Of a stretch of 64,000 nucleotides of DNA, positions 9,804-60,292 are shown piece by piece. The notes under the pieces were generated by a model that made no database searches, had not been told where the DNA came from, and saw only the letters and a program-made list of their open reading frames with translations. The stretch is taken from NCBI GenBank assembly GCA_905478325.1, contig CAJQIB010000027.1:33185-97184 (forward strand), in the 5' to 3' direction. Each line of letters begins with the position of its first letter. Position 1 is the stretch's first letter. This DNA is from an uncultured Flavobacteriales bacterium (GTDB taxonomy: Bacteria > Bacteroidota > Bacteroidia > Flavobacteriales_D > Sanyastnellaceae). The translations under genes and the position numbers were made by a program.

Positions 9804-11444
<1,641 letters not shown>

Positions 11445-11479
11445 TCAAATAATTGTAATCCGATGTGGATAATTGAATA

Positions 11480-44296: not shown

Positions 44297-44914
44297 TCAG
44301 ATGTTCTCATACAACGCATTGGTCTGCTCAATGAAACGGAGCAACTCTTCGCGTCCATCTCCTTTTTCAGCACTTGTAATGTATACCGGAGGCATCCGAT
44401 GCCACTGCTTGAGCATTTCAGCCTCATAGACCGGCAGAAACGCTGCACGTTCCGTTTGATTCAACTTGTCCACTTTGGTGAAGACCATCACAAAAGCCAA
44501 GTTGTTCTCTGCCATCCATGTCATGAACTCCATATCCACTTTCTGCGGTGGATGCCGGCTATCCAAGAGCATCATCACGCACATCAAATTGGCGCGGTTT
44601 GTCAAAAACTGTTCACTGGTGCGCTGCCATTTTCTACGGCTGGACTTGCTGACTTTGGCATACCCAAAGCCAGGAAGGTCGACCAAGTACCAACAGGTTT
44701 CCCGTTCCAAGTTGATGGCAAAGTGATTGATCAACTGGGTCTTTCCGGGGGTGCCTGATATTTTAGCCAGGCTATTGCGGTGAGCGAGCATGTTGATCAA
44801 GGAAGACTTGCCCACGTTGGACCGACCAATAAACGCATACTCCGGAAAATTCGGTGCCGGACACTCTTGCGGGTGCGCACTGGACTTCATAAACTCAGCA
44901 GTGTGTACTTCCAT
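44297..44914 (-). CDS. engB: Ribosome biogenesis GTPase EngB (YihA/YsxC)
   Basis: EngB is an essential TRAFAC GTPase in late 50S assembly. The 205-residue protein shows all G motifs: G1 GRSNVGKSS (30-38), G2 T in GTPGKTQLIN, G3 DLPGFGYA, G4 TKVDK and G5 SAEKGDG. It lies two bases downstream of the hydrolase gene on the same strand. The arrangement gldC, engB, hydrolase and mraZ is seen in flavobacteria as I recall. Confidence 0.96.
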   Translation of the reverse strand: MEVHTAEFMKSSAHPQECPAPNFPEYAFIGRSNVGKSSLINMLAHRNSLAKISGTPGKTQLINHFAINLERETCWYLVDLPGFGYAKVSKSSRRKWQRTSEQFLTNRANLMCVMMLLDSRHPPQKVDMEFMTWMAENNLAFVMVFTKVDKLNQTERAAFLPVYEAEMLKQWHRMPPVYITSAEKGDGREELLRFIEQTNALYENI

Positions 44915-44916
44915 AA

Positions 44917-45696
44917 TTATCCGTGCGCGTTACCAATTCCTCGTCCTGCAAACCACGCATCCAGAATTGTATTGAACTGCTTGGGATGCTCCATCATGGG
45001 CGCATGACCACATTCATCAATCCAAAACAAGTCGCTATCAGGAAATCCAGCATGAAACTCTTCGGCTACTTCTGGAGGTGTAATGATGTCATTTTTTCCC
45101 CAGATTAAACAAACAGGAATGTTCATGGATGGCAAATCCTTCGACATGTTGTGGCGAATCGCACTTTTCGCGATGGCCAAAATCCGTAGAATTTTCTCTC
45201 GGCTGTTGACCGCTTCAAAACACTCATCAACCAACGCATCGGTTGCGTGCTTTGGATCAAAGAACGTCACCGCCACCTTGTCCCGTATAAAGGTCTTGTC
45301 CTCTCTTCGCGGGAAACTGTTGCCAAATGCATTTTCATACAACCCGCTGCTCGCCGTGAGCGACAAGGACGCCACACGATCCAAATTGTCTCGCGTAAAG
45401 ATCAGACCGACGTGACCGCCCAAGCTATTTCCCAGAAGATGGACTTTTTCCAGCGCTAGCTCATCGACAAAACCCTCTATGTGCTTGGCAAGGTTCTTCG
45501 CGCTCGTGCTGAGCATGGGCAATTCGTAGATCGGGAGCATCGGAATGATGACACGAAAGCGATCTGAAAAATGATCAAATACGTCTGCGAAATTGCTCAA
45601 CGCTCCAAAGAGACCGTGGAGCACAACGAGTGGCTCGCCGCTTCCAGCCTCGACGTATTTGTATTCCCCGCGTTCAATGATGGTGAGTGGTTCCAT
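44917..45696 (-). CDS. Alpha/beta hydrolase upstream of engB
   Basis: This is a 259-residue cytosolic hydrolase of the alpha/beta fold. The start is placed at ATG 45696 (MEPLTIIERGEYKYVEAG). The alternative TTG start further upstream adds 16 unrelated residues. The catalytic set is nucleophile GNSLGGH (Ser91), acid WGKNDIITP and base DECGHAPM, with VVLHGLFG forming the oxyanion hole. The substrate is unknown, and an esterase or lipase-like activity is the broad guess. It is transcribed away from the dcw cluster, so its promoter must lie in the same 294-bp gap that carries the DnaA-like boxes and the MraZ repeats. Confidence 0.85.
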   Translation of the reverse strand: MEPLTIIERGEYKYVEAGSGEPLVVLHGLFGALSNFADVFDHFSDRFRVIIPMLPIYELPMLSTSAKNLAKHIEGFVDELALEKVHLLGNSLGGHVGLIFTRDNLDRVASLSLTASSGLYENAFGNSFPRREDKTFIRDKVAVTFFDPKHATDALVDECFEAVNSREKILRILAIAKSAIRHNMSKDLPSMNIPVCLIWGKNDIITPPEVAEEFHAGFPDSDLFWIDECGHAPMMEHPKQFNTILDAWFAGRGIGNAHG

Positions 45697-45800
45697 GAGT
45701 GATGTTTTGCGTCTTTGTGTCCTCTCCAGAAAACATTCGTGCAAAGGAACACCATGATTTCACGGGAAAACGAATAAAAAACGAGGCTGTTCCACGCTCG

Positions 45801-45920
45801 ACTGTTCACAATTTCTGTGGATAACGTGTGAATAACGCAATTCTCCACCATTCCCCACGAATCACTTAACCCGCGTCAGCGCTGAATAACCGTCTCTTTT
45901 AACGAAAAGACTTTTCCACA
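45801..45920. promoter_or_regulatory. DnaA-box cluster upstream of mraZ (candidate origin or DnaA control site)
   Basis: In the 294-bp gap between divergent genes, two exact matches to the DnaA consensus TTATNCACA lie in tandem on the minus strand, 11 bp apart: TTATCCACA (45824-45816) and TTATTCACA (45835-45827). On the plus strand there are one single-mismatch box, TTTTCCACA (45912-45920), and one two-mismatch box, CTGTTCACA (45802-45810). TTCTCCACC (45841-45849) is a further weak match. The cluster ends exactly where the MraZ repeats begin. It could be oriC or a site where DnaA regulates the division cluster. The rest of the gap holds no gene that I can support. Confidence 0.55.
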
Positions 45921-45960
45921 AAGTGGGAGAAAGTGGCGATTAATGGGAGAAAGTGGGAAA
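45921..45960 (+). promoter_or_regulatory. MraZ operator: four 10-bp repeats
   Basis: Four consecutive decamers stand in perfect 10-bp phase: AAGTGGGAGA (45921), AAGTGGCGAT (45931), TAATGGGAGA (45941) and AAGTGGGAAA (45951). Each contains the TGGG or GTGG core known from MraZ binding sites in Escherichia coli and Mycoplasma. They lie 30 bp before the mraZ ATG, so MraZ should autoregulate the dcw operon here. Confidence 0.85.
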
Positions 45961-45990
45961 TTCTAGATATTTTTGAAAAGCGAATCAGCC

Positions 45991-46476
45991 ATGCTCAATC
46001 TACTCGGAGAATACAAGTGTAAAATCGATGTCAAAGGACGTCTGATGTTTCCTGCGCGCCTCCGTCGTCAGCTTGAATTGATCTTGCACCACGGCCTGGT
46101 AGTGAACCGTGACATCTTTGAAGACTGCCTCGTCATTTACCCGCAACCGGAGTGGGACAAGGTCAACAATGAGATGTCACGCTTGAGCCGATACAATCGC
46201 AAGCACCAGCTCTTCCAGCGAAAATTCATGAAGGGGGCAACGCACGTAGAGCTAGATGGCTCAGGCCGTGTCAACCTCCCTGCTCTTTTATTGGAACACG
46301 CAGGAATTGATGTCCAAGAGGACAATGAAGTCATCGTATCAGGGCTTGGAGAGAAAATCGAAATCTGGAGCAAGGCTCGTTACGGCCAATCCGTCTTGGA
46401 TGATTCTGAAGATTTTGACTTCGGTGATTTGGCTGAAGAAGTACGACGCGACCTCGAACCAGGCAGCGAGAACTGA
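45991..46476 (+). CDS. mraZ: Transcriptional regulator MraZ
   Basis: MraZ is an AbrB-fold ring-forming DNA-binding protein that controls its own dcw operon. The 161-residue product has two half-domains with the family signatures GEYKCKIDVKGRLMFPARLR (residues 5-24) and ATHVELDGSGRVNLPALLL (about 83-101). ATG 45991 (MLNLLGEY) is chosen. A TTG 18 bases upstream is less likely. Its presumed targets, four phased repeats, lie just upstream. rsmH follows two bases after the stop. Confidence 0.95.
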   Translation: MLNLLGEYKCKIDVKGRLMFPARLRRQLELILHHGLVVNRDIFEDCLVIYPQPEWDKVNNEMSRLSRYNRKHQLFQRKFMKGATHVELDGSGRVNLPALLLEHAGIDVQEDNEVIVSGLGEKIEIWSKARYGQSVLDDSEDFDFGDLAEEVRRDLEPGSEN

Positions 46477-46478
46477 GC

Positions 46479-47429
46479 ATGAGTACTTCCGTTTACCATA
46501 TCCCCGTTCTGCCTGAGGCTAGCCTCACAGGACTAGGACTCGACACCCGGAAGAACGGACGATTCGTTGATGCGACTTTTGGAGGTGGCGGACACACCCG
46601 ACTCATGCTGGATCAGCTCGATGAAAACGCCTACATCTACGGATTCGATCAAGACCCCGACGCCCAGGCCAACATTCCTGACGACCCTCGTTTTCAGTTG
46701 ATCCCTGAGAACTTTCGTTTTATCCGCAACTTCCTGCGCCTCTCAGGAGTGCGTGAGGTGGACGGCATCTTAGCAGATCTCGGGGTTTCCTCGCATCAAT
46801 TTGATCAAGCAGAACGGGGTTTTTCGATTCGAGGTGAAGCGCCTTTGGACATGCGAATGAACTCTAAGAAAGGCAAAAGCGCTGCCGATTTAATTGCGGA
46901 ATGTTCGCCGATCGAATTGACCCGGATTTTTCGGCAATACGGAGAAATCAATCGCCCCGACAAAGCCGCTTATGCGGTGGAACGCGCGCGAGAATCTCAG
47001 CGTATCACAACAACGCGCCAGCTCATGGACGCCCTCGTTGGCCAAGCTCCAAGAGGCCGTGAAAACAAATTCTTCGCGCAGGTATTCCAAGCACTTCGCA
47101 TTGAAGTCAATGATGAAATGGGCGCATTGCGCAGTTTACTCGAGTCGTCCATTGAACTCCTTCCGGAAGGAGGACGGCTCGTCGTGATCTCTTACCATAG
47201 CCTTGAAGACCGCTTGGTCAAGCACTTCATGCGTTCAGGAAACTTCGAAGATGAATTGCATCGTGATTTCAAGGGACAACTGCTTGCTCCATTTGACCTC
47301 ATTGCCCGCAAAGCCATTGTAGCCGATGCGGATGAAATTGAAGTCAATCCACGCTCTAGAAGCGCTAGACTTCGCATCGCACAGCGCACAGGATATTCTC
47401 CAGAACCATCCAAAACGGATGCCACATGA
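46479..47429 (+). CDS. rsmH: 16S rRNA (cytosine-1402-N4)-methyltransferase RsmH
   Basis: RsmH (MraW) methylates C1402 of 16S rRNA with S-adenosylmethionine. The 316-residue product has the SAM-binding motif DATFGGGGHT (31-40), YGFDQDPDA, the signature ILADLGVSSHQFD and the late VISYHSLEDRLVKHF. It lies second in the dcw cluster. The ftsL start overlaps its stop as ATGA, so synthesis is coupled. Confidence 0.97.
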   Translation: MSTSVYHIPVLPEASLTGLGLDTRKNGRFVDATFGGGGHTRLMLDQLDENAYIYGFDQDPDAQANIPDDPRFQLIPENFRFIRNFLRLSGVREVDGILADLGVSSHQFDQAERGFSIRGEAPLDMRMNSKKGKSAADLIAECSPIELTRIFRQYGEINRPDKAAYAVERARESQRITTTRQLMDALVGQAPRGRENKFFAQVFQALRIEVNDEMGALRSLLESSIELLPEGGRLVVISYHSLEDRLVKHFMRSGNFEDELHRDFKGQLLAPFDLIARKAIVADADEIEVNPRSRSARLRIAQRTGYSPEPSKTDAT

Positions 47430-48058
47430 AGTCATTCCTGCGTCGAATCACAAAAGGAAAAGAGAGCCAATCTGCTCCAGTAGCGAAGGGCAATCGCGTG
47501 CTTTCAGAAAAAGAAATTGCCGTACAGCAAGAACAACTTCAGGAACAACGCGCTCAAGCAGCAGCGAGACAACGCGCCATCCTATCCGCTCAAAAACAGG
47601 GCCCTCGGAACCACCCCAAAACGCATAGCGATGCGCAACCTCGTGTTGAGAAGCCTTCGTTCTGGAAACGATTCTCCTCAAAACGGAAGAAGCCAGACCC
47701 TCAGGTTCGCGCCGCAAAGCAAAAAAAGAACGCCATCGGCCCTGTCATCCGGGACCTCTTAAGCGGCGAGTTCTTAACCAAAGAAGGCGTCACCCGCCAC
47801 ATCCCCTATCTGCTATTCATCAGCGCCCTGTTCGTGGTGTATATCGCGATGGGATATCAGTTCGAACGCATTGAGCGTGAGAAGATGAAAAAGAAGGAAC
47901 GCATCGAAGAATTGAGCGCAGAGTTCAAAACACTTCAAGCTGATTTCGAAAGCCGCCTGCAACAGAGCAGCGTTGAGAGGAACATCGCGGACCTCGGCCT
48001 CATCCAGCCCGTTGAGCCTCCCTACTTGCTCGAACAAATCGTCCCAGCGCAACCATGA
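47426..48058 (+). CDS. ftsL: FtsL-like division protein with long cytosolic N-terminus
   Basis: This single-pass membrane protein lies at the ftsL position. One helix (about 126-143) is followed by a leucine-zipper-like periplasmic coiled coil (about 145-183) and the NIADLGLIQPVEPP stretch that Bacteroidota FtsL proteins show. At 210 residues it is about twice the usual length. The excess is a positively charged, Gln-rich cytosolic N-terminus (1-125) with low sequence complexity. It overlaps rsmH and ftsI by four bases each (ATGA). FtsL helps activate septal synthesis through FtsWI. Confidence 0.82.
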   Translation: MKSFLRRITKGKESQSAPVAKGNRVLSEKEIAVQQEQLQEQRAQAAARQRAILSAQKQGPRNHPKTHSDAQPRVEKPSFWKRFSSKRKKPDPQVRAAKQKKNAIGPVIRDLLSGEFLTKEGVTRHIPYLLFISALFVVYIAMGYQFERIEREKMKKKERIEELSAEFKTLQADFESRLQQSSVERNIADLGLIQPVEPPYLLEQIVPAQP

Positions 48059-50181
48059 AAAACCAGCACGAAATATCATTCCGTGGCTGGCTCGTTTTTG
48101 CTGCATTCGTGATGCTTGGACTTTCCGTGTTCGGTCGCATTCTCTGGATTCAGAGCGCAGAACACGAACAATGGAAAACCATCGGAGAACGGTTTGAAAG
48201 CAGTGTGCGCTCCATTGAACCTTCTCGCGGACAGATTTACGCTTCCAACGGAAGCGTACTCGCTACTTCGGTTCCTGTATATGAAGTCAGATGGGACAGC
48301 AAAAGCGAAGCCATCCAGTGGGATCAATTCGACCGGGATCTTGACAGCTTGTGCAGGGGGCTCAGCCGTATTCTCCAGAGCCACACCGCCAGTGAATACC
48401 GCGAAATCTTGCGGAGCGGTCGCAACGCAGGCCGCCGCAATGTTCTGATCGCGCGACGCGCTAGTTATTTGCAACAAAAGGCGTTGGTTGAATTGCCTTT
48501 TGTTCGCCTCGGTCGCTTTAAAAGCGGTTTTACGTTTGCGCGCAACGAAGTCCGAAGGAGACCCTTTGGGGACCTCGCAGGACGCACCGTAGGAATCGAT
48601 CGAGAAGAAAATCGGGTTGGCCTTGAAGGAAGTTGGAACGAGTCTCTTGCAGGAGTGACCGGCAAGCAACTGCAACGCCGCATTTCAGGTGGTGATTGGA
48701 TGCCCGTTTCCGATGAATTCATCATCGAGCCACAAGCTGGACTGGATGTGATTTCAACCATTGATATGCACCTGCAAGATGTCGCCTCACGCGCACTTGA
48801 AAAGCAACTTTTGAATCACAATGCCGCTTGGGGCACCGCCATTCTCATGGAGGTGGCAACAGGGAAAATCCGAGCAATGGCCAACCTGACCAGAGACGGC
48901 GATGGCACCGGCGACCAACCTCCTGTTTATTATGAGTCCTACAACCATGCGATTGGTACTGCTGTAGAACCGGGATCAACGTTCAAGCTAGCCTCGCTCA
49001 TGGCCGCGATGGAAGCGGGCGGAATTCAACCTGAAGATGAGATTGACACAGGCAAAGGCGTGGCGACCTTTCATGGACGTAAAATGTCGGACTCCAACGC
49101 GGACGAAGGGGGAAATGGCATCATCGATTTGGAACAGGTATTCGCACTGAGTTCGAACGTTGGAACTGCACTCACCATCAAAAAGGCATTCGACGACCGA
49201 CCACAAGTATTCTTGGATGCTTTGGACCGCATTGGCGTAAGCAATCCCACAGGCGTGCTCTTGAACGGAGAGGCTCAGCCACAAGTCTACAAAACGGCCG
49301 GTGACGACCTCTGGTCCAAGATTTCCTTGACCCAAATGGCCATTGGTTACGAATTGACTCAGACGCCATTGCAAACATTGGCCCTGTTCAATGCGGTTGC
49401 CAACAACGGGACGATGGTTCGGCCGCAGTTGGTTGAACGCACCGAACACAATGGACAAACTGTGACGCAATTCGGCACAGAAGTCATTCGTAAAAAAGTC
49501 TGTTCCTCCTCCACTTTGGAGACTTGCCAGCAGATGATGCGCAGTGCAGCTGACCCCGAAGGAAACGGCACTGCACAATACATTTTTGCGAAGAGTCCAT
49601 ACCGCGTTGCGGGCAAAACAGGCACCGCGCGCATTGCAGGGCCCAATGGATATGACGGGCGGTACCGCGCATCCTTCGCTGGGTATTTTCCCGCAGAAAA
49701 CCCGCGCTACTCCTGCATTGTTGTCATCGCTGACACCCGCAGCGGAGCGTATTACGGTTCCACCATTGCCTGTCCTGTTTTCAGAGACGTTGCCAACAAA
49801 GTCTACGCGACAGACCCCACGTTCCACCACACCACAACGGGACCACTGGCCAAAACACCTCATTTGCCCGGGTCAAAAGATGGAGCAAAGCCCGACCTCA
49901 TCGCATTGTACGATGCGCTGGAATTGCCCTACACAGCAACCGGGGAATCGGATTGGGTTTCCGTTGAAACCGCTTCTGAACAGGCTGCATTAACTGAACG
50001 CTTGATCGACCCCAATCACGTCCCTGATGTCCGCGGAATGGGATTACGGGATGCCCTGTACCTCTTAGAAAATGCCGGATTAAACGTGCAAACCGATGGC
50101 GCAGGAACGGTTCGCCGACAATCCATTAAACCGGGGACCGCACTACGCGCTCGCCAAACCATCACCCTCGAACTCTCCTGA
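48055..50181 (+). CDS. ftsI: Septal penicillin-binding protein with PASTA domain (FtsI/SpoVD-type)
   Basis: This is a transpeptidase that cross-links septal peptidoglycan. It has an N-terminal membrane anchor (about 12-32), a dimerisation domain, and a transpeptidase domain with all three motifs: SxxK as STFK (Ser308, Lys311), SSN (366-368) and KTGT (521-524). The C-terminal 65 residues form one PASTA domain (HVPDVRGMGLRDALYLLENAG). At 708 residues it is longer than E. coli FtsI (588) mainly because of PASTA. Its place between ftsL and murE supports the FtsI identity. The ATG overlaps the ftsL stop. Confidence 0.95.
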   Translation: MKNQHEISFRGWLVFAAFVMLGLSVFGRILWIQSAEHEQWKTIGERFESSVRSIEPSRGQIYASNGSVLATSVPVYEVRWDSKSEAIQWDQFDRDLDSLCRGLSRILQSHTASEYREILRSGRNAGRRNVLIARRASYLQQKALVELPFVRLGRFKSGFTFARNEVRRRPFGDLAGRTVGIDREENRVGLEGSWNESLAGVTGKQLQRRISGGDWMPVSDEFIIEPQAGLDVISTIDMHLQDVASRALEKQLLNHNAAWGTAILMEVATGKIRAMANLTRDGDGTGDQPPVYYESYNHAIGTAVEPGSTFKLASLMAAMEAGGIQPEDEIDTGKGVATFHGRKMSDSNADEGGNGIIDLEQVFALSSNVGTALTIKKAFDDRPQVFLDALDRIGVSNPTGVLLNGEAQPQVYKTAGDDLWSKISLTQMAIGYELTQTPLQTLALFNAVANNGTMVRPQLVERTEHNGQTVTQFGTEVIRKKVCSSSTLETCQQMMRSAADPEGNGTAQYIFAKSPYRVAGKTGTARIAGPNGYDGRYRASFAGYFPAENPRYSCIVVIADTRSGAYYGSTIACPVFRDVANKVYATDPTFHHTTTGPLAKTPHLPGSKDGAKPDLIALYDALELPYTATGESDWVSVETASEQAALTERLIDPNHVPDVRGMGLRDALYLLENAGLNVQTDGAGTVRRQSIKPGTALRARQTITLELS

Positions 50182-50187
50182 TTTCTC

Positions 50188-51645
50188 ATGAAGCTATTGA
50201 AAGACATCCTTTACGGAACGCGGATTCAAGAAATCACTGGAAGCACCCATGTGGCCATCGAAGACGTTGCTTTTGATAGCCGTAAGGTCAAGGCGTTTAG
50301 CCTCTTTGTGGCCGTTCCCGGAACGAAAGTAGACGGACACGACTACATCGATCAAGCCATCGAAAATGGCGCAATCGCAATCGTAGCAGAGCGGTTACCT
50401 GAAGAAAAAAAGGAAGGGATTGCCTACATCCGAGTTCACGATGCAGCTGCGTCGCTCGGCCCCATTGCAGCGAGTTATTACGATCATCCGAGCGCATCCA
50501 TGAAGGTCATTGCTGTGACCGGAACCAACGGAAAGACGACCACCGTAAGCTTATTGTACCAGCTTTTCCGTTCGATGGGACGAAAAACAGGGATGTTCAG
50601 CACCGTGGAGAACCGCATTCTGGACCAAACCATTCCGGCGACGCACACCACCCCAGACGCCCTGCAAATGCAGCGACTTTTCAGGGACATGGCGGATGCT
50701 GGTTGCCGCTATGTTTTCATGGAAGCAAGCTCTCATAGCATCCACCAGCACCGCTTGGCAGGCACGCAACTGACAGGAGCCGTATTCACGAACATCACAC
50801 ACGAGCACCTCGATTACCACGGAAATTTCAATGGCTACATCCAAGCAAAAAAAGGCTTGTTTGACCAACTCAACAGCGAAGCGTTTGCACTCTACAACCA
50901 CGACGACCCCCACGGAATGGACATGATCCATGACACCAAGGGGCGGATTGTAGATTATGCCCTCACCTCCATGGCTGATTACCGTGGACGCATCGTTGAA
51001 AATCAGCTCAACGGATTGCACTTGAATCTTGCCGGCCACGATGTGTACTCCCGGTTGATTGGGGGCTTCAATGCCTACAACCTACTCGCTGTGTATGCCG
51101 TGACGCAAGAACTCGGAATGGAGACCATGGAAGTGCTCACCCACCTCTCCATGTTGAAGCCTCCTGCAGGCCGTTTTGAACAAGTCGCGGCACCGATCGG
51201 CGTGACCGCAGTGGTGGATTTCGCGCATACGCCGGATGCCTTAGACAATGTACTGAAAACCATCGATTCGTTCCGTACCGGCACAACGCAAGTGATTACC
51301 GTGGTGGGCTGTGGAGGAGATCGCGACCCGAGCAAGCGCCCGGCCATGGCGCAAGTCGCTACCAAATGGAGTGATCGCGTCTTCCTGACTTCTGACAACC
51401 CCCGGAGTGAAGAGCCAGACGAAATTATTGAAGAAATGCGCAAAGGACTCGACCCCATTGACGCACGAAAATGCATTGCCATCGCAAACCGCCGTGAAGC
51501 CATCCGCATGGCCGCTCAATTGACGCAGAGCGGAGACATTCTCCTCGTTGCTGGTAAAGGGCATGAAACCTACCAGGAAATTCAAGGCATCCGCCATGAG
51601 TTTGATGACCGCGTTGAACTCGTTAACGCATTCAATCCCGCCTGA
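50188..51645 (+). CDS. murE: UDP-MurNAc-L-Ala-D-Glu:meso-DAP ligase MurE
   Basis: MurE adds the third residue of the peptidoglycan stem peptide. The 485-residue ligase has the ATP site TGTNGKTT (111-118), a substrate segment HEHLDYHG near 205, the carbamylated lysine region QAKKGLF (about 219-225), and the DNPR motif (403-406), which is diagnostic of meso-diaminopimelate specificity. The wall is therefore expected to be DAP-type, as in other Bacteroidota. It overlaps mraY as TGATG. Confidence 0.96.
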
Positions 51646-52913
51646 TGCTCTATCATCTCTTCACATACCTCGACCAACTGTGGGATCTCCCCGGAGCAGG
51701 CTTGTTCCAGTTTATCTCGTTCCGTGCCGCTTTGAGTTTGATGACATCCCTGGTGATCGGCATCTTATTCGGCAAGCGCATTATTGAATGGTTGCAAATG
51801 CAGCAGGTCGGAGAAATCGTTCGGGACCTCGGTTTAGAAGGCCAGATGAACAAGCAAGGGACTCCAACGATGGGGGGCTTGATCATTCTTGCGGCCATCA
51901 TCATTCCGACGCTCTTGTTTGCAGATTTATGCAACATCTACACCCAAATGATGCTGCTCGTGACGGTGTGGTTGGGTGCCATTGGTTTTCTCGATGACTA
52001 CATCAAGGTGTTCAAGAAAAACAAAGACGGTCTTGCGGGTCGTTTCAAAATCATTGGTCAGGTTGGCGTTGGTTTAATCGTTGGCGCCATCATGTGGTGG
52101 CATCCGGATGTGACCATTAAAGATCCAGCCGATCGACAGTTTGTTGGACAGACCATAGAAATGACGGCTACCGATGGGCAGACGTTCGCCGTATTCGATC
52201 CACAGGGTGGGCAGACAATTTGGGAGGCCAAGAAGTCCTCACAAACGACGGTTCCTTTCATTAAAGACAACAACTTCGATTACGCTTGGCTCGTCGAGTG
52301 GATGGGACCGTATGCCATCGGATGGGGATGGATCGTCTTCATACCCATGGTGATTTTGATTGTCACGGCGGTCTCCAACGGAGCCAACTTGACCGATGGC
52401 ATCGATGGTCTTGCGACAGGAACAAGCGCCATCATCGGGCTTGGGCTTGCCGTGCTTGCTTACGTCAGTTCCAATGTGGTCATCGCCGATTATCTCAACA
52501 TCGTTTACATCCCATTGTCTGAAGAACTCGTGGTCTTCATCGCTGCATTTGTTGGAGGTTGCATCGCATTCCTGTGGTACAATGCCTATCCAGCACAAGT
52601 CTTCATGGGAGACACCGGAAGCTTAGCATTGGGCGGAATCATCGCTGCATTCGCTATTGCCATCCGTAAAGAATTGCTCCTGCCGATTCTGTGCGGCATT
52701 TTCCTCATCGAAAATCTCTCCGTGGTCATGCAAGTAGCGTGGTTTCGACACACACGGAAAAAGTATGGCGAAGGAAGACGGGTTTTTCTCATGGCACCGC
52801 TTCATCACCACTACCAGAAGCTCAACATCCCCGAATCCAAGATCACCGCGCGCTTCTGGATTGTCGGCATTCTGTTGGCCGTGATCACCATTGTTACCCT
52901 CAAAGTCCGCTAA
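51645..52913 (+). CDS. mraY: Phospho-MurNAc-pentapeptide translocase MraY
   Basis: MraY moves phospho-MurNAc-pentapeptide to undecaprenyl phosphate (lipid I). The 422-residue protein has about ten transmembrane helices, the catalytic Asp pair in GFLDDYIK (117-118), [10 protein letters not shown] (248-257) and [11 protein letters not shown] near the end. Relative to the 360-residue E. coli enzyme it carries a hydrophilic insert of roughly 60 residues (about 155-215) between helices, which would face the periplasm. I recall such an insert in other Bacteroidota. MurE and MraY overlap. murD begins 6 bp later. Confidence 0.96.
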
Positions 52914-52919
52914 TTCATC

Positions 52920-54356
52920 ATGACATCAGCACGACTACCCATTCTTGGAGCAGGTGAAAGCGGCGTTGGAGCTGCCCGACTCGCGCTGCTCAACGGTTTT
53001 GAACCGTGGGTAAGCGACGCAGGAGAAGGGGTGCTCGCCATGCGAGAAGAATTGGACAAGCACGGCATTGACCATGAATTCAATGGCCATTCAAACGATG
53101 CCATTCTAGAAGCAGCAAAAGCGTTGGGCTGGGTTATCAAAAGCCCTGGAATTCCAGAAACTGCTCCACTCATTGAACACCTTCGTGCAGAGGGAATCGA
53201 TGTCATCAGCGAAATTGAATTCGCCAGCAGACATGCTCAAAAGGAGAATGAGCAGGTCATCGCTATCACAGGTGCCAACGGAAAAACCACAACGACTTCT
53301 CTGGTGGCCGCGCTCTTGAAAGATGCCGGAAAAAACGTTGCATGCGTTGGAAATATTGGCAAAAGCTGGGCACGTGATCTGGCCGAGCGCGATCAGCCGG
53401 CAGCATACCAGGTGGTCGAAGTCAGCAGTTTTCAACTTGATGGCATCACCTCCTTTCGTCCAAACATTGCCATCCTGCTCAACATCACGCCAGACCACCT
53501 CGATCGGTATGCGGATGACATCGCTCGCTATGCCGATGCCAAATGGCGCATCACCGCTTACCAAACCAAGGAAGACATCTTGGTCATCAATGCCGAAGAC
53601 GACTTGTCCATGGAGCGCTGGAAATCTTCAGCAAAAAATCACGGCACGCAAGCTCGCGTCGTTGCCGTGTCCACTAGAAAAAACCTCAATGCATTGCGAA
53701 AAAGCCTTCACAAACAAGGATTGCATCCTTGGGCTGTCGCAGGAGTAGACCAGAGCAAACGACCCGAACGATTCACGATTCACATACCTCAACAAAAACC
53801 ATTTACCATGACCATCCAAGAATTGGCATTGCAGGGAAAACACAACCTGTACAACAGCATGGCCGCAAGCGTAGCGGCACGAGTTCTCGACTTGCGTAGC
53901 GAAGGCATCCGAGAGAGCCTCTCTCAATTTGACGCCATAGAACACCGCATGGAGTTCGTAAAAGAAGTGAACCAAATCAAATTCATCAACGACTCCAAAG
54001 CCACGAACGTGAACAGTGCTTGGTTTGCCCTTGAGAGCATGCGCGGTCCCGTCATCTGGATTGCAGGAGGCGTCGATAAAGGCAACGATTACAGCTCACT
54101 GCTCCATTTGGTATCCAGTAAAGTCGATCACTTGATTTGCTTGGGCAAGAACAACGAAACGCTTCTCTCCACATTTGGAGATCGCGTTGAAACCACACAC
54201 GAAGTTGAGGATGCCAATGCCGCCGTTCAGCTGGCATATGATTTGGGAATGCCCGGACACAGTGTACTGCTCTCGCCTGCTTGTGCGAGTTTCGACTTGT
54301 TCGGATCGTATGAAGAACGTGGACATGCGTTCAAAGCTGCTGTTAGGGGTCTCTAA
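52920..54356 (+). CDS. murD: UDP-MurNAc-L-alanine:D-glutamate ligase MurD
   Basis: MurD adds D-glutamate to UDP-MurNAc-L-alanine in the cytosol. The 478-residue ligase starts with the nucleotide-fold LPILGAGESGVGAAR, has the ATP site GANGKTTT (118-125), a middle ITPDHLDRY segment and the C-terminal ligase domain with NDSKATN and SPACASFD. It is about 40 residues longer than the E. coli enzyme. It lies between mraY and ftsW, with 2-6 bp gaps. Confidence 0.96.
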   Translation: MTSARLPILGAGESGVGAARLALLNGFEPWVSDAGEGVLAMREELDKHGIDHEFNGHSNDAILEAAKALGWVIKSPGIPETAPLIEHLRAEGIDVISEIEFASRHAQKENEQVIAITGANGKTTTTSLVAALLKDAGKNVACVGNIGKSWARDLAERDQPAAYQVVEVSSFQLDGITSFRPNIAILLNITPDHLDRYADDIARYADAKWRITAYQTKEDILVINAEDDLSMERWKSSAKNHGTQARVVAVSTRKNLNALRKSLHKQGLHPWAVAGVDQSKRPERFTIHIPQQKPFTMTIQELALQGKHNLYNSMAASVAARVLDLRSEGIRESLSQFDAIEHRMEFVKEVNQIKFINDSKATNVNSAWFALESMRGPVIWIAGGVDKGNDYSSLLHLVSSKVDHLICLGKNNETLLSTFGDRVETTHEVEDANAAVQLAYDLGMPGHSVLLSPACASFDLFGSYEERGHAFKAAVRGL

Positions 54357-54358
54357 AC

Positions 54359-55654
54359 ATGGGCCTTCTTTCGCATGAACAAGCCGCTTCAAGCGGCAAC
54401 TCGACACTGCACAAACGCATCGGCGCCTGGCTCGAAGGAGACAAGGTCATTTGGATGGTCACCTTGATCCTCAGCTTGTGTTCGCTGCTAGCAGTCTACA
54501 GTGCCATATCGTCTTTGGCTTACAAAACCGATGGCAGTTCATTGCGTTTCTTATTCAAGCAGGGAATCATGCTCAGCATTGGCTGGGGCGTCATGTTGCT
54601 CACGCACAAAGTGAATTTTCGCTATTTCTCACGGATATCGCAAGTTCTCATTTGGGTGGCAGGGATATTGTTGATTTTAACCCTGATTTTCGGAGCCGAC
54701 ATCAACGAAGCCAAACGGTGGCTGCGGATTCCTTTTGTGGGATTGACTCTTCAGACTTCTGATTTCGCAAAGGTTGTTTTGGTCACATTCGTGGCAAGAG
54801 AGTTGACACAACGGCGCATGCAATTGCATGATTTCAGAAACGGTGTCATGCCCATACTCATACCCATCGCGGTCATCTGCGGGTTGATACTGCCCGCTGA
54901 CTTTTCTACGGCCGCCATGCTCGCCATCGTCTGTGTCGGTATGCTCTTTATCGGCGGAATTCCATGGAGACACCTGTTCCGGATTGCCGGATTTGGAGTC
55001 ATTGCCTTGGTCGTTTTGTATGGGGTTGGAAAAACGGCTCCGGAAGTCTTGCCTCGTTTTGGAACGTGGGCTGGTCGGATTGAGCGCTTCGCAGGCATTG
55101 ACAAAGCAGCCGAAGGCGACGCCTTGGATTATCAGATTGAATTGGCTCAAGTCGCCATCAACCGAGGTGGTTTGCTGCCGCATGGACCTGGAACAGGAAC
55201 CTCGCGCAATTTCCTTCCCCACCCTTATTCTGACATGATTTATGCCTTCATTATTGAGGAATGGGGTGCGATCATGGGCGGTTTAGGGCTGGTTATGCTC
55301 TACCTCATCCTCCTCTTTAGAACAATCAGGATATCCACGCGATGTCCGAGGCATTTCGGAGGATTGCTCGCTATGGGGCTTGGGATTCTCCTTGTTTTCC
55401 AAGCCATGATCAATATGGCCGTTGCCGTGAGGCTCTTCCCCACTACAGGACAACCCCTGCCTTTGGTCTCATACGGAGGAACCTCCATGGTCTTTACATG
55501 CTTGGCGATTGGAATGATTTTAGCGGTGAGTCGATCGGTCACCGATCCAAAAGGATGGGAAAAAACGAGCGATGCAATGGACGCTCGAGACCATGAACGT
55601 GGGACGGGCAATCGTTTTATTGAACCCGAAAACTCCGCCACCAGTGAGCGCTAA
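54359..55654 (+). CDS. ftsW: Septal glycosyltransferase FtsW
   Basis: FtsW is the SEDS-family lipid II polymerase of the septum. The 431-residue protein has about ten helices and the SEDS hallmarks: SDFAKVVLV near residue 138, the long loop with AINRGGLLPHGPGTGTSRNFLPH ending in SDMIYAFIIEEWG (catalytic-region Asp, then Glu), and a late LPLVSYGGTSM. A hydrophilic C-terminal tail of about 45 residues is cytosolic. The murG start overlaps its 3' end. Confidence 0.95.
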   Translation: MGLLSHEQAASSGNSTLHKRIGAWLEGDKVIWMVTLILSLCSLLAVYSAISSLAYKTDGSSLRFLFKQGIMLSIGWGVMLLTHKVNFRYFSRISQVLIWVAGILLILTLIFGADINEAKRWLRIPFVGLTLQTSDFAKVVLVTFVARELTQRRMQLHDFRNGVMPILIPIAVICGLILPADFSTAAMLAIVCVGMLFIGGIPWRHLFRIAGFGVIALVVLYGVGKTAPEVLPRFGTWAGRIERFAGIDKAAEGDALDYQIELAQVAINRGGLLPHGPGTGTSRNFLPHPYSDMIYAFIIEEWGAIMGGLGLVMLYLILLFRTIRISTRCPRHFGGLLAMGLGILLVFQAMINMAVAVRLFPTTGQPLPLVSYGGTSMVFTCLAIGMILAVSRSVTDPKGWEKTSDAMDARDHERGTGNRFIEPENSATSER

Positions 55655-56789
55655 CACATCACTGAAACGGGTGGTTATATCCGGAGGTGGAACCGGGGGG
55701 CACATTCACCCGGCACTTGCCATTGCCGATGAAATTATCCGGAGACATCCCCAATGTGACATTCAATTCGTGGGGGCCATTGGACGGATGGAGATGGAAA
55801 AGGTCCCGCTTGCCGGCTACCCCATCACCGGGTTATGGATTACGGGGATCGATCGAAACTGGAAAAGCCTGCGCAATCTGCTCTTTCCATTTAAATTGAT
55901 TCACAGCTTGATTCACGCCAACCGCTTGATTCGCAAGTGGAAGCCCCAAATCGCAATCGGAGTCGGGGGCTTTGCCAGTGGGCCTTTGCTTCAAAGAGCC
56001 TCTGTCAAGAAAATCCCCACCCTCATACAGGAACAAAATTCATTTCCGGGAATCACCAATCGAATCCTTGCCAAAAGAGTCGACCGTATCTGCGCAGGAT
56101 TCCCCGGACTCGATCGCTGGTTTCCCGCAGACCGCATCGTTGAAACTGGCAACCCATTGCGGGAGCGCGTTGCGGCTCTGGCGAATACCATGGAAGACGA
56201 GGAACTGAGCCGAGCATGCCTCCATTTTGGATTCGACGACGATCGCCCATTGGTCTTTGTCATGGGGGGGAGTTTGGGTGCTCTTTCCATGAACAAAGCG
56301 GTGCAACACCTGTGCGAAGAACACGCCAACGGCCTGCCTTTTAATGTCCTCTGGCAATGCGGCGGACGTTACGAAACCACCTGCAAAGCGTGGTTGGAAT
56401 CACAAACAACTGCGGCCTCTGCCCAGATTCGCTGCCATGGGTTCATTGACCGCATGGATTGGGCCTATGCCGCAGCTGACGTGATCGCGAGCCGAGCTGG
56501 CGCCATGTCCATTGCCGAACTGGCGTTGGTCGGAAAGCCCACTATTTTGGTGCCCTCCCCCTTTGTCGCTGAAGACCATCAAACCCGCAATGCGGAATCC
56601 CTCAGCGAACGTGGGGGAGCCATTTTACTCAAGGATCAGCACGTAGTAGAACGATTGGGAGATGCTTTAAAAAACCTGCTTGAAGACACGGAAAAAAGCC
56701 AGTTGATGTCAAAGTCAATACAACAATCTGCTCGACCAGATGCCGCGGCTCGTGTTGTGGATACCATTGAATCACTCATTGAGTTGTGA
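55644..56789 (+). CDS. murG: Undecaprenyldiphospho-MurNAc-pentapeptide GlcNAc transferase MurG
   Basis: MurG (GT28) transfers GlcNAc to lipid I, giving lipid II. The conserved N-terminus is VVISGGGTGGHIHPALAIA, and the C-terminal acceptor region shows MGGSLGA and SRAGAMSIAE. The start is uncertain: ATG codons at 55572 and 55593 lie 60 to 80 bases inside ftsW, whereas a GTG at 55644 gives a 381-residue protein whose first residues precede GGGTGGH by the usual dozen. The GTG is preferred and overlaps ftsW by 11 bases. It is followed by murC 9 bp later. Confidence 0.93.
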   Translation: MSANTSLKRVVISGGGTGGHIHPALAIADEIIRRHPQCDIQFVGAIGRMEMEKVPLAGYPITGLWITGIDRNWKSLRNLLFPFKLIHSLIHANRLIRKWKPQIAIGVGGFASGPLLQRASVKKIPTLIQEQNSFPGITNRILAKRVDRICAGFPGLDRWFPADRIVETGNPLRERVAALANTMEDEELSRACLHFGFDDDRPLVFVMGGSLGALSMNKAVQHLCEEHANGLPFNVLWQCGGRYETTCKAWLESQTTAASAQIRCHGFIDRMDWAYAAADVIASRAGAMSIAELALVGKPTILVPSPFVAEDHQTRNAESLSERGGAILLKDQHVVERLGDALKNLLEDTEKSQLMSKSIQQSARPDAAARVVDTIESLIEL

Positions 56790-56798
56790 GTTTTTGTC

Positions 56799-58214
56799 AT
56801 GCAATTGAATTCCATTTCCACCGCGTATTTCATCGGCATCGGAGGCATCGGAATGAGTGCTCTCGCACGCTACTTAAAACGCAAACATGCGATCCGTGTT
56901 GCAGGATATGATCGCGTTCCTTCGGATGTAACCGCTGCTTTGGAAGCCGAAGGCATTGAAGTCTACTACAATCAGAACGTGGTGCCTGAAGACATTGCTT
57001 CGCTCCCTCCAGCATCCATTTTAGTGATCCGTACGCCCGCGGTTTCCTTGGATCACCCTCATCACCAAACTTTTGAGGAGCGAGGAGTCCGTATCATCAA
57101 GCGTAGCGAACTGCTCGGGCACATTGCACAGGAAACCCCCACGCTAGCCGTTGCTGGAACCCACGGTAAAACGACAACCACTGCCATGCTCGCCCACTTG
57201 TTGGACGGCTGTCCCGGTAAATGCAATGCCTTTCTCGGGGGAATCGCCACGGGGATTGAATCCAATCTGTACCTGAATGATGGCGCTCCTTGGACCGTTG
57301 TAGAGGCGGACGAGTTTGACCGCAGTTTTCTCCATCTACACCCCGAACATGCCGTGATCACCAGCTTGGACCCTGACCACCTCGATGTGTATGGCAGCGA
57401 AAAAGCCTTCCAAGAGGCCTTTCTCTCGTTCTCCCGCCAAGTCAGTCAAGGATGTCTGATTCACGCTGACGTCGATTGGGTTGGCGAGGAAAATGAACGC
57501 TACGGCATTGCTTCCAACCGCGAAGACACAGCACATTGGACCTATGCTGCAGTGGCTCCTCGTGTCCACAAAGATGTCTGGACGGCAGACGTCAAATTGG
57601 GTGCTGAATGGGTGGAAGGCGTGACCTTTCCAATGCCCGGACTTCACAACGTATCCAATGCCTTGGCCGCACTTGCTTTGGCACATCGAGCAGGGGCGCC
57701 AATGGACATTTGCATTCAACGACTGAAAACATTCAAAGGCATCAACCGGCGATTCACCTACCACATTCGAGAAGAATTTGGCGTGTACATCGATGATTAT
57801 GCCCACCATCCTTCAGAATTGAATGCGGCCATTGAAGCTGCCCGAGCGCAGCATCCAGGCAAAGAAATAACGGGCATTTTTCAACCCCATCTCTTCAGCA
57901 GAACACGCGATCATATGATCGAATTTGGAGCTGTTTTGAGTCAATTGGATCGTGTCATCTTACTCCCAATTTATGCGGCAAGGGAACAGCCCATTCCGGG
58001 AATCGATTCACAAACGCTGTTTGAAAACATCCCGAACCCCTCCAAACATCTCATCGATTCCGAACGGATATTCGATTGCTTGAAAGCGCATCCACCTGAA
58101 GTGCTGATGACATTGGGAGCCGGAGACATCGACCGGAGTGTAATCCCAGTGAAACAGTGGCTTCTGGAGGATGATAATCGATTCAAAAAAATAAAGACAA
58201 CGCCCTCTCCATGA
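56799..58214 (+). CDS. murC: UDP-MurNAc:L-alanine ligase MurC
   Basis: MurC adds the first residue of the stem peptide. The 471-residue protein has an N-terminal Rossmann part (FIGIGGIGMSALA), the ATP site GTHGKTTT (120-127), EADEFDRSFLHL, the DDYAHHPSE motif near 330 and a C-terminal FQPHLFSRT region. Its stop overlaps the ftsQ start (ATGA). Confidence 0.96.
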   Translation: MQLNSISTAYFIGIGGIGMSALARYLKRKHAIRVAGYDRVPSDVTAALEAEGIEVYYNQNVVPEDIASLPPASILVIRTPAVSLDHPHHQTFEERGVRIIKRSELLGHIAQETPTLAVAGTHGKTTTTAMLAHLLDGCPGKCNAFLGGIATGIESNLYLNDGAPWTVVEADEFDRSFLHLHPEHAVITSLDPDHLDVYGSEKAFQEAFLSFSRQVSQGCLIHADVDWVGEENERYGIASNREDTAHWTYAAVAPRVHKDVWTADVKLGAEWVEGVTFPMPGLHNVSNALAALALAHRAGAPMDICIQRLKTFKGINRRFTYHIREEFGVYIDDYAHHPSELNAAIEAARAQHPGKEITGIFQPHLFSRTRDHMIEFGAVLSQLDRVILLPIYAAREQPIPGIDSQTLFENIPNPSKHLIDSERIFDCLKAHPPEVLMTLGAGDIDRSVIPVKQWLLEDDNRFKKIKTTPSP

Positions 58215-58942
58215 TTCAACGCCTCCTACCCATCGCCATGTCCATCGTCCTCTTGGGGACTACCGGAACATTGGTTGGGTTTGCGTTGCACGCGGAGAAG
58301 GAAGTGACCTACCTCGGATTGGATGTGGATGTGGATGAGATCAAAGGCATGTTCTTTGTCGATGCTGCAGGTGTCCGTGATGCCATCCTTGCACAAGACA
58401 GCATCCAAGGATCTTGGATCGAATCCGTATCACTCCAGCAAGTGGACGCATGGGTTCACTCCATTCCAGCAGTCGATAACGTCGAGGTCTATCCCGGTCT
58501 CGACCGGATTTTACACGTACGTGTTTCACAAAAAGAACCGGTCGCGCGGTTGCACATCGGCCCAGACGAACCTGATGTGTATATCGACACCGAAGGAGCC
58601 GCCCTCCCCTTGTCTCCGTACTTCACTGCACGGGTGCCCATCATCCATGCACAATCCTTGGAGCATGCGTCCGTCGCGTTCTCATTGATTCAGTCCACCT
58701 GCAAAGACCCCCTGTGGTCCGCCTTCATTGACCAAGTGCAAGTCACCGAGGACGGAGGGTTGGAAATCATCCCGCGGATTGGAGGAGCCCGCATTGCCTT
58801 GGGCGATACCTCCCAACTCGATTCAAAATTGAACAATCTATTGACCTTCTACCGGGAGCAAATCCGTAGAGGCAATTTGAACGAATACCAACGCATCAAC
58901 TTGGCCTTTGCAGGCCAGGTGGTGGCTCAACGCTATTATTAA
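58211..58942 (+). CDS. ftsQ: Cell division protein FtsQ
   Basis: FtsQ/DivIB is a bitopic divisome protein with one N-terminal helix (about 5-25) and a periplasmic part. At 243 residues it is typical for the phylum. Segments such as IPAVDNVEVYPGLDRILHVRVSQKEPVARL (about 85-114) fit the POTRA-to-beta-domain junction, and the C-terminal LTFYREQIRRGNLNEYQRINLAF is the usual end. It lies between murC and ftsA. Identity rests on position plus this pattern, because sequence conservation is low. Confidence 0.88.
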   Translation: MIQRLLPIAMSIVLLGTTGTLVGFALHAEKEVTYLGLDVDVDEIKGMFFVDAAGVRDAILAQDSIQGSWIESVSLQQVDAWVHSIPAVDNVEVYPGLDRILHVRVSQKEPVARLHIGPDEPDVYIDTEGAALPLSPYFTARVPIIHAQSLEHASVAFSLIQSTCKDPLWSAFIDQVQVTEDGGLEIIPRIGGARIALGDTSQLDSKLNNLLTFYREQIRRGNLNEYQRINLAFAGQVVAQRYY

Positions 58943-58956
58943 GTCAACGCAATACA

Positions 58957-60246
58957 ATGGAAATGGAAGAACAAGCCCACAATGACGAATTGGTCGTCGG
59001 ACTCGATATCGGAACAACCAAAATTGCTTGCTTCGTAGGCCGTCGGAACGAACATGGAAAAATTGAAATCCTTGGCTACGGAAAAAGTGAGTCCGTTGGT
59101 GTGTCACGAGGCGTCGTTGCCAACATCGAACGTACCGTCGAATCAATCCGCAAGGCCATCGATGAAGCGGAACGCACATCTGGCGTCGCCATTGAAGTCG
59201 TCAACGTAGGCATTGCAGGGCAGCACATCAAGAGTCAGCAAACACGCGGACAGCGAACCCGCGATGACCTGGAGTCCGAAATCAGCAACGAGGATATCCA
59301 AGCGCTGATTCAGGATATGTACAAGCAAGTCATGCAGCCTGGCGAAGAAATCCTGCACGTGCTTCCTCAGGAATACACAGTTGACAACGAGCAAGGCATC
59401 AAAGAGCCTGTGGGCATGAGCGGCATTCGATTGGAAGCCAATTTTCACCTCATCATCGGCCAGATTGCCGCAATCCGCAACATCTATCGCTGCATTCAAA
59501 AGGCCAACCTTACAGTCGATCAACTGATCTTGGAGCCCTTGGCGTCATCAGCCGCTGTTTTGAGCGAGGAAGAAAAAGAAGCCGGTGTCGCTTTGGTCGA
59601 CATTGGTGGCGGTACCACTGACATTGCCATTTTTCAAGATGGAATCATTCGGCACACCGCGGTTATTCCTTTTGGAGGCAACGTATTGACTGAAGACATC
59701 CGCCAAGGATGCCTCATCATGAAAAAACAAGCGGAACAACTCAAGCAGCGCTTTGGATCGGCCATCTCCACAGAGATGAAAGACAATGAAATCGTCTGTA
59801 TTCCTGGCTTGCAAGGACGCAACGCTCGCGAGATCAGCCTGAAAAATCTTGCTGCCATCATCGAAGCGCGCATGACTGAAATCATCGAGCATGTTCACTT
59901 TGAAATCAGAAATTCTGGTTTTTCCGATCAACTGATTGGCGGGGTCGTCCTGACCGGTGGCGGTTCGCAGTTGCGTCACGTCACCCAACTTTTTCAATAC
60001 GTCACTGGATTGGACTGCCGCGTTGGCTATCCGAGTGAACACCTCGCCGAAGCTCCTGACGCGCAAGCCACTGCCCCTAGTTTCGCAACGGGAGTTGGCC
60101 TCGTCATCAAAGGATACGATCGCTTAGCTCCTAAAAGCGACTCCATCAAGGCCGACGATATCCGGAAGGATGCCGAAAAGTCTCAACACATGCGGCTTAT
60201 TGACAAGCTCAAGAATTACTTCGTCGAAGAAGAAGAGGAAGACTGA
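58957..60246 (+). CDS. ftsA: Cell division protein FtsA
   Basis: FtsA is the actin-like membrane tether of FtsZ. The 429-residue protein has phosphate-1 GLDIGTTKIACFVG (about 15-28), the 1C SHS2-type subdomain, VDIGGGTTDIAIF near residue 213, VLTGGGSQLRHV near 330, and a C-terminal amphipathic membrane-targeting helix (MRLIDKLKNYFVEEEEED). It starts 14 bp after ftsQ. ftsZ follows 46 bp after its stop. Confidence 0.96.
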   Translation: MEMEEQAHNDELVVGLDIGTTKIACFVGRRNEHGKIEILGYGKSESVGVSRGVVANIERTVESIRKAIDEAERTSGVAIEVVNVGIAGQHIKSQQTRGQRTRDDLESEISNEDIQALIQDMYKQVMQPGEEILHVLPQEYTVDNEQGIKEPVGMSGIRLEANFHLIIGQIAAIRNIYRCIQKANLTVDQLILEPLASSAAVLSEEEKEAGVALVDIGGGTTDIAIFQDGIIRHTAVIPFGGNVLTEDIRQGCLIMKKQAEQLKQRFGSAISTEMKDNEIVCIPGLQGRNAREISLKNLAAIIEARMTEIIEHVHFEIRNSGFSDQLIGGVVLTGGGSQLRHVTQLFQYVTGLDCRVGYPSEHLAEAPDAQATAPSFATGVGLVIKGYDRLAPKSDSIKADDIRKDAEKSQHMRLIDKLKNYFVEEEEED

Positions 60247-60292
60247 ATCCTTCCTGTATTAAAGAATATCTCATTCCCTGAATTCTCCATTC

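Follow-up and report, generated by a model that had tools for sequence, protein, structure and literature searches.

DnaA-type boxes beside predicted MraZ operator units upstream of the division gene cluster in an uncultured Flavobacteriales bacterium and its relatives in Bacteroidia

Genes and sites in the gap upstream of mraZ

We analysed a window of 64,000 nucleotides, positions 33185-97184 of contig C27 in the draft genome of an uncultured Flavobacteriales bacterium (2.375 Mb, 59 contigs). Its MraZ shares 93% identity with that of a MAG of an uncultured member of Flavobacteriales (L315), in keeping with this placement. Within this window, a gap of 294 bp (43% GC) separates mraZ, which heads a division and cell-wall cluster, from a divergent alpha/beta hydrolase gene. 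The genes and sites at the locus are as follows (window coordinates).

44297..44914, minus strand: GTPase gene (PF01926, E=2.6e-19)
44917..45696, minus strand: alpha/beta hydrolase gene, divergent from mraZ, start codon chosen at 45694-45696 (PF00561, E=7.6e-19)
45742..45749, minus strand: possible -7 element of the divergent promoter, TTCCTTTG (weak; one mismatch to TAnnTTTG)
45803..45811, minus strand: weak DnaA-like site TTGTGAACA (TGTTCACAA on the plus strand), 13 bp from the tandem, start to start
45816..45824, minus strand: DnaA-type box 1, TTATCCACA (exact match)
45827..45835, minus strand: DnaA-type box 2, TTATTCACA, 11 bp from box 1 (exact match)
45912..45920, plus strand: DnaA-type box 3, TTTTCCACA, abutting the MraZ units (from sequence and conservation)
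45921..45960, plus strand: four 10-bp MraZ-type operator units, AAGTGGGAGA AAGTGGCGAT TAATGGGAGA AAGTGGGAAA (from sequence)
45968..45975, plus strand: likely -7 element of the mraZ promoter, TATTTTTG (from sequence and conservation)
45991..46476, plus strand: mraZ, 161 aa, ATG at 45991 (PF02381, E=2.4e-27)
46479..62047, plus strand: division and cell-wall cluster from rsmH (46479; PF01795 in this first gene) to ftsZ (60293-62047; PF00091/PF12327)

The names of the genes between rsmH and ftsZ are our own assignments, made from the translations, and the GTPase is presumably of the YihA/EngB type. The GTPase and hydrolase genes perhaps form a single operon.

A preliminary description of this DNA had reported two exact TTATNCACA boxes 11 bp apart on the minus strand, a one-mismatch box ending at 45920 and weaker ones, all in a gap between divergent genes and touching MraZ repeats. 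These sites are present. The exact boxes lie at 45816-45824 and 45827-45835, the one-mismatch box is TTTTCCACA on the plus strand at 45912-45920 and abuts the MraZ units, and the gap is flanked by the hydrolase gene on the minus strand and mraZ on the plus strand. We examined one of the weaker sites, TGTTCACAA at 45803-45811, and found it strongly conserved in an alignment of the genus.

The window holds five exact boxes against a shuffle mean of 1.25, a count reached in 2 of 100 shuffles, while the 27 exact boxes of the whole 2.375 Mb draft fall below the 36 matches of a control motif read backwards. Among these 27, the tandem in the gap is the only pair within 20 bp. Random placement gave such a pair in 143 of 20,000 simulations (0.006 pairs expected), which bears out the earlier statement that two exact boxes so close together are unlikely by chance. 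For the relaxed motif TTWTNCACA the window shows no clear enrichment (nine matches, shuffle mean 5.83, with 13 of 100 shuffles reaching nine), and a one-mismatch box alone therefore means little. When A or C is admitted at position 6 (TTWTNMACA), a choice made after relatives had been seen, the 294-bp gap contains three boxes against a shuffle mean of 0.12, and none of 2000 shuffles reached three. The gap thus holds a cluster of DnaA boxes of the kind found in bacterial origins. Elsewhere in the window, an exact TTATCCACA lies at 11464-11472 on the minus strand, 22 bases upstream of a frame that we take to be groEL (9804-11441, minus strand), and another lies inside this frame at 10462-10470 on the plus strand.

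MraZ sites in Mollicutes are given as AAAGTG[T/G] (PMC8475190). The units at 45921-45960 are tandem TGG units with a 10-bp period directly upstream of mraZ, as in MraZ operators, and are a predicted MraZ operator on the basis of their sequence.

The -7 consensus in Bacteroidota is TAnnTTTG, at a typical distance from the transcription start. Sigma-70-type promoters are not expected in this phylum, and a scan of that type gave no match. Using the consensus and its distance, we place the likely transcription start of mraZ near 45982. Box 3 would then lie near -66 and the MraZ units would run from -61 to -22, over the expected place of the -33 element.

Skew around mraZ and the gap beside rpiB

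The preliminary description had offered two readings of the gap, the first being that it is the replication origin of this chromosome. The tandem with its third box, the divergent flanking genes and the absence of any other close pair of exact boxes from the genome all favor an origin here, and the same tandem recurs in one relative (G034) in a gap beside rpiB, discussed below. An origin is expected to show a switch from negative to positive GC skew, and no such switch was found at mraZ. Over 19 kb to the left of mraZ on C27, third-codon-position skew was -0.18 for genes on the plus strand and -0.11 for those on the minus strand. The 18 kb to the right have no minus-strand genes, and the plus-strand genes there, divided into two bins, gave -0.26 and -0.27; skew at four-fold sites agreed with these values. 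In the relatives G011 and G013, for which the right side of mraZ was read (to 33 kb in G011), skew was negative in genes of both strands. It was negative on both sides of mraZ in G025, G031 and G032, the right side in G032 being devoid of minus-strand genes. In G028 it passed from near zero to negative and not to positive, and the flat profile of G029 was uninformative. By a crude pattern the gap showed no DnaA-trio-like run, and its 40 bp of lowest GC content (27.5%) fall on the mraZ promoter.

The 16S rRNA gene of this genome lies on the same contig as mraZ, at C27:725-2243 on the minus strand. rRNA genes usually run with replication, and this orientation fits right-to-left replication across the contig. 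No 16S match was obtained in G032, where rRNA position consequently gave no marker of the origin.

Bacteroidetes origins are described as commonly distant from dnaA in a Prevotella paper (PMC4755523), and a figure legend gives 'oriC (mnmG)' for a member of Flavobacteriaceae (PMC12843772). In the present genome mnmG lies at C28:64684-66531. About 7 kb from its start we found an AT-rich gap of 325 bp (C28:71418-71742, 35% GC) that separates a minus-strand gene, which we take from its sequence to be rpiB, from a plus-strand gene. Here the skew switches. Four-fold-site skew was -0.24 in plus-strand and -0.38 in minus-strand genes over the 10.6 kb to the left of the gap, and +0.22 and +0.13 (the latter from few sites) over the 9.6 kb to its right, where the contig ends. 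The cumulative minimum over the 56 kb read was at C28:72000.

Among relatives, G011 switches cleanly at the same gap, from -0.18/-0.17 to +0.11/+0.17. G001 has its cumulative minimum at the gap (C3:87000) with four-fold values of mixed sign, and G018 and G020 are positive to the right of it over the 2.6 and 1.9 kb read. The local cumulative minimum falls within the gap in G036 and G023 and 64 bp beyond it in G029. Four other stretches in the same comparison have no rpiB gap, G034 shows no clear switch, and in the shorter pieces read first the local minima of G011, G020 and G034 lay to the left of mnmG. The complete genome G032 has a different gene order, with the skew minimum on the other side of mnmG. 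Its switch, at about 3.645 Mb, is within 7 kb of mnmG (3.639-3.641 Mb) and about 0.77 Mb from mraZ at 2.871 Mb. These positions come from sampling at 20 places followed by a continuous reading of 3.497-3.690 Mb, in a genome where skew is weak and sampling was coarse.

The GC-skew minimum, which the preliminary description had put forward as the check on its origin reading, thus lies elsewhere both in the contigs of this genome and in G032. With skew negative on both sides of mraZ and a switch beside rpiB on C28, we reject the origin at mraZ on skew and regard it as extremely improbable. The gap at mraZ has 43% GC, the one on C28 35%. The switch at the rpiB gap of this genome is a firm observation. 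C28:71418-71742 is likely to be the origin of this genome, and a switch at the rpiB gap is likely to be general in the family.

Two other candidates were rejected. The dnaA gene of this genome (L001, on C12 of G000) has no nearby exact box, and in G032 dnaA, at 1.983 Mb, sits within the stretch (about 1.4-2.1 Mb) over which positive skew gives way to negative. The region upstream of dnaA in the present genome is long and AT-rich; as it lacks an exact DnaA box, autoregulation through canonical boxes is not apparent. A site downstream of glmS, suggested by tandems in G029 and G033, was compared in ten genomes (the contig of G011 ends in glmS). The first 420 bp there contain no box in this genome, in G049 or in others of the ten, nor is this the place where skew switches.

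The boxes in the rpiB gaps resemble those at mraZ in some relatives. The gap of G036 contains five TTWTNMACA boxes, all with A at position 6, three of them TTATGAACA and two overlapping TTATAAACA on opposite strands, a number reached in none of 2000 shuffles. G034 has the tandem TGTTTAAAACATGTTAATAG and three boxes in 320 bp (10 of 2000 shuffles). The single TTWTNMACA in the rpiB gap of this genome is no more than chance would give (469 of 2000 shuffles); by eye, this gap shares GTTGATAGC and TGTTTAAAAC with the mraZ tandems or rpiB gaps of relatives. The Bacteroidota origin near mnmG and the mraZ gap have a box type (G036) and a tandem (G034) in common, whereas the skew switch, the AT-rich gap and the rpiB/mnmG context belong to the former and not to mraZ.

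Conservation of the boxes from genus to class

The preliminary description had proposed searching the same gap in related genomes for conserved boxes. The boxes are conserved in the genus, and the type of box 3 recurs across much of the class. A search of 60 genomes, this one included, gave a MraZ match in 57. We aligned the gap from 19 sequences of the genus, this one and 18 relatives, which are not independent of each other (pairwise identity 0.49-0.98, mean 0.63); L004, at 88 bp, was too short and was omitted. The mean majority fraction per column was 0.91 for the half-site, 0.92 for the tandem (45816-45837), 0.99 for box 3 and 0.93 for the MraZ units, and 0.57 and 0.61 for the two spacers. 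Seven of the eight columns of the half-site TGTTCACA are identical and the eighth stands at 0.95, while seven of the eight columns of the TATTTTTG element are invariant. Box 2 varies in the genus as CTATTCACA, CTATCAACA or CTATTAACA, and the tandem drifts from TGTGGATAACGTGTGAATA to TGTTGAAAACRTGTTRATA with its columns kept.

A loose pattern of the tandem matched once each in 18 of 22 genus genomes (this one included), all 18 matches being upstream of mraZ, against three matches in the 22 genomes for the pattern read backwards. Of the four exceptions, G001 is one base off and G012 is on a contig that begins 88 bp upstream of mraZ. The other two, G005 and G015, gave no mraZ match, and G015 has one loose match elsewhere. 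Six of 15 other genomes of the family carry the loose tandem at mraZ, as do none of 23 genomes from other families, in which forward and control matches are about equally frequent. At mraZ the tandem pair is thus restricted to the family and absent from some of its members. Copies of the tandem module were also seen in other places, upstream of an HU-type gene in G026 (C6:57263, L052) and just downstream of glmS in G029 (C36:114205, L076) and G033 (C1:23158, L053); these may be other DnaA targets, moved modules or chance.

Box 3 reaches much further. We collected 97 mraZ promoters, 35 from the family, 22 from other families of the order and 40 from other families of the class with one genome each. 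For the class beyond the order, we picked the 40 families by hand from 149 genomes, leaving aside f16, f18, f19, f22, f31, f33, f34 and f43 among others, and L004 with its 88 bp stayed in the count. Arrays of TGG units at 10-bp steps were found in 95 of the 97 promoters, with at least three units in 76, compared with about 3 of 97 in shuffles. L169 (f62) and L198 (f15) have no array by our rule and are excluded from the 95 promoters and 50 families considered below; L198 has forward boxes upstream of mraZ and L169 a reverse one. A forward TTWTNMACA lies within 35 bp 5' of the array in 74 of the 95 promoters and a box on the other strand in 11, so that 83 have one in either orientation. By family, 30 of the 50 sampled have a forward box (20 have none) and 39 a box on either strand (11 have none). 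In 4000 of the 30,240 column permutations of the motif, the mean was 0.40 families for forward boxes and 0.85 for either strand, with maxima of 24 and 29; the best permuted motifs are near-copies that overlap the true one.

The box also keeps its distance from the array. In 51 of the 74 promoters the box lies 3 bp before the first TGG, and in 8 it lies 2 or 4 bp before it; another 12 have it at 12-14 bp and the remaining 3 at 23 bp, so that every distance is within one base of a 10-bp step. In all 30 forward-box families the box lies 2-4, 12-14 or 22-24 bp before the first TGG. Outside the family the distance is 3 bp in 23 of 40 promoters, and 16 of the 30 families have a member at exactly 3 bp. 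With places restricted to 3 or 13 bp, 20 of the 50 families have the box, a number that none of the 30,239 other permutations reached (mean 0.06, best 18). When promoters were aligned on the array only, with no box assumed, the columns read about TTWTCAAMA at 0.2-0.6 bits each, no sharper than their A-rich neighbors.

A composite pattern of box and MraZ units at strict spacing matched in 71 of 395 class genomes, versus 3 for its backward control. As the pattern contains the MraZ units, this excess is no test of the box alone; the permutation tests, with loose and with strict places, address the box separately. When named genomes were scanned, the composite matched at least 118 stretches. Among the matches listed, a frame called MraZ-like by a short motif test lies directly downstream in 111, six are too near an end and one has no such frame. 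Among the genera listed are Flavobacterium, Tenacibaculum, Polaribacter, Pontibacter and Rufibacter; a further record carries the title Verrucomicrobia. The box forms among the matches listed are TTATTAACA (54), TTATCAACA (43), TTATCCACA (10), TTTTCAACA (7) and others (4). In several relatives from the order (L150, L152, L155 and L157) we noticed by eye reverse MraZ-type units (CCCACTT...), which may form a second operator about 80-120 bp 5' of the forward array.

Such a fixed register is also compatible with recognition of the site by MraZ or a partner. The 9-mers would then not be DnaA sites at all, box 3 forming part of the operator of MraZ or its partner and the tandem serving another regulator. 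The constancy of the 3-bp distance in 51 of 74 promoters speaks for this, as does the fact that the commonest forms are not TTATNCACA, from which TTATTAACA and TTATCAACA depart at position 6 and TTTTCAACA at two positions. Several observations go against it. The variable columns (W at 3, N at 5, A or C at 6) agree with what the rpiB gap of G036 shows, where the boxes have A at position 6 and a variable position 5. Canonical TTATCCACA or TTATTCACA stands upstream of mraZ in several lineages, and the box is reversed in some families. The mraZ promoter of E. coli, like the one described here, has MraZ repeats directly upstream of mraZ, but its sole TTWTNMACA within 434 bp upstream is at -244 on the minus strand and not beside the repeats. 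We consider this alternative unlikely.

A predicted DnaA-MraZ operator of the division cluster

The second reading in the preliminary description was a DnaA site tying initiator level to expression from mraZ to ftsZ. This emerges as the best reading, and one that applies more widely than was proposed, supported by the deep conservation of the boxes, their fixed register with the MraZ units and the occurrence of the same box type in the rpiB gaps of some relatives. Boxes in the promoter region are conserved in relatives, as in DnaA-controlled promoters, and the DnaA of this genome carries the DNA-binding domain PF08299. DnaA boxes with as many as three mismatches from the consensus can function in B. 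subtilis (PMC4447404). We consider it likely that the mraZ gap is a composite DnaA-MraZ control region of the division and cell-wall cluster and not an origin.

DnaA would bind box 3 (45912-45920), directly upstream of the four MraZ units and in helical register with them. A second DnaA site, made up of the tandem (45816-45835) and the half-site (45803-45811), would lie about 75-110 bp further upstream, between the divergent promoters. MraZ on 45921-45960 would cover the expected -33 element and so repress. DnaA beside it may add to repression, or may displace MraZ and help RNA polymerase. Transcription from mraZ to ftsZ would thereby follow the amount or the ATP state of DnaA through the replication cycle. 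That DnaA is the bound protein, that it acts with MraZ and with which sign are points that we infer from the arrangement of the sites.

The boxes might instead titrate or reactivate DnaA and stand in this promoter by chance. Sites of this type are known as datA and DARS. That three to four boxes stand within about 120 bp at a distance from the origin defined by skew could be read in this way. The boxes are few, though, the tandem is not found at mraZ outside the family, and a register with the MraZ units across the class would lack a reason. We hold such a role to be very unlikely.

In outline, it is known that DnaA can control division genes. DnaA binds the promoters of ftsZ in Caulobacter and ftsL in B. 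subtilis (PMC8203912). The promoter studied here is predicted to share with them the binding of DnaA at a division gene; MraZ sites are unmentioned in the section of that article concerned, whereas here the box stands in fixed register with MraZ units. The same section states that DnaA boxes upstream of ftsZ in E. coli do not act on ftsZ transcription, so boxes near division genes may do nothing. Another parallel is the E. coli mioC promoter, where an MraZ site overlaps a DnaA box according to a passage of PMC4446571 citing Eraso et al. 2014. Both promoters combine DnaA and MraZ sites, but mioC adjoins oriC, whereas the present arrangement belongs to mraZ and the division cluster, is remote from the skew switch and has been retained in much of the class. 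None of the titles, abstracts and passages covered by our literature search shows a division cluster whose MraZ operator has a DnaA box set in register with it; subscription papers were thinly covered, which makes this weak evidence of novelty.

The boxes at mraZ look like an old and widely kept link between replication and division. More tentatively, and with somewhat less than even confidence, we suggest that Bacteroidia may have inherited an ancestral DnaA-MraZ operator, set in helical register, through which the cluster would read out the state of the initiator directly. A register of box and MraZ units over much of the class would provide a definite and testable site of replication-division coupling in culturable species. 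If the ancestral operator is real, it would give one general answer to how initiation and division are coupled in Bacteroidia.
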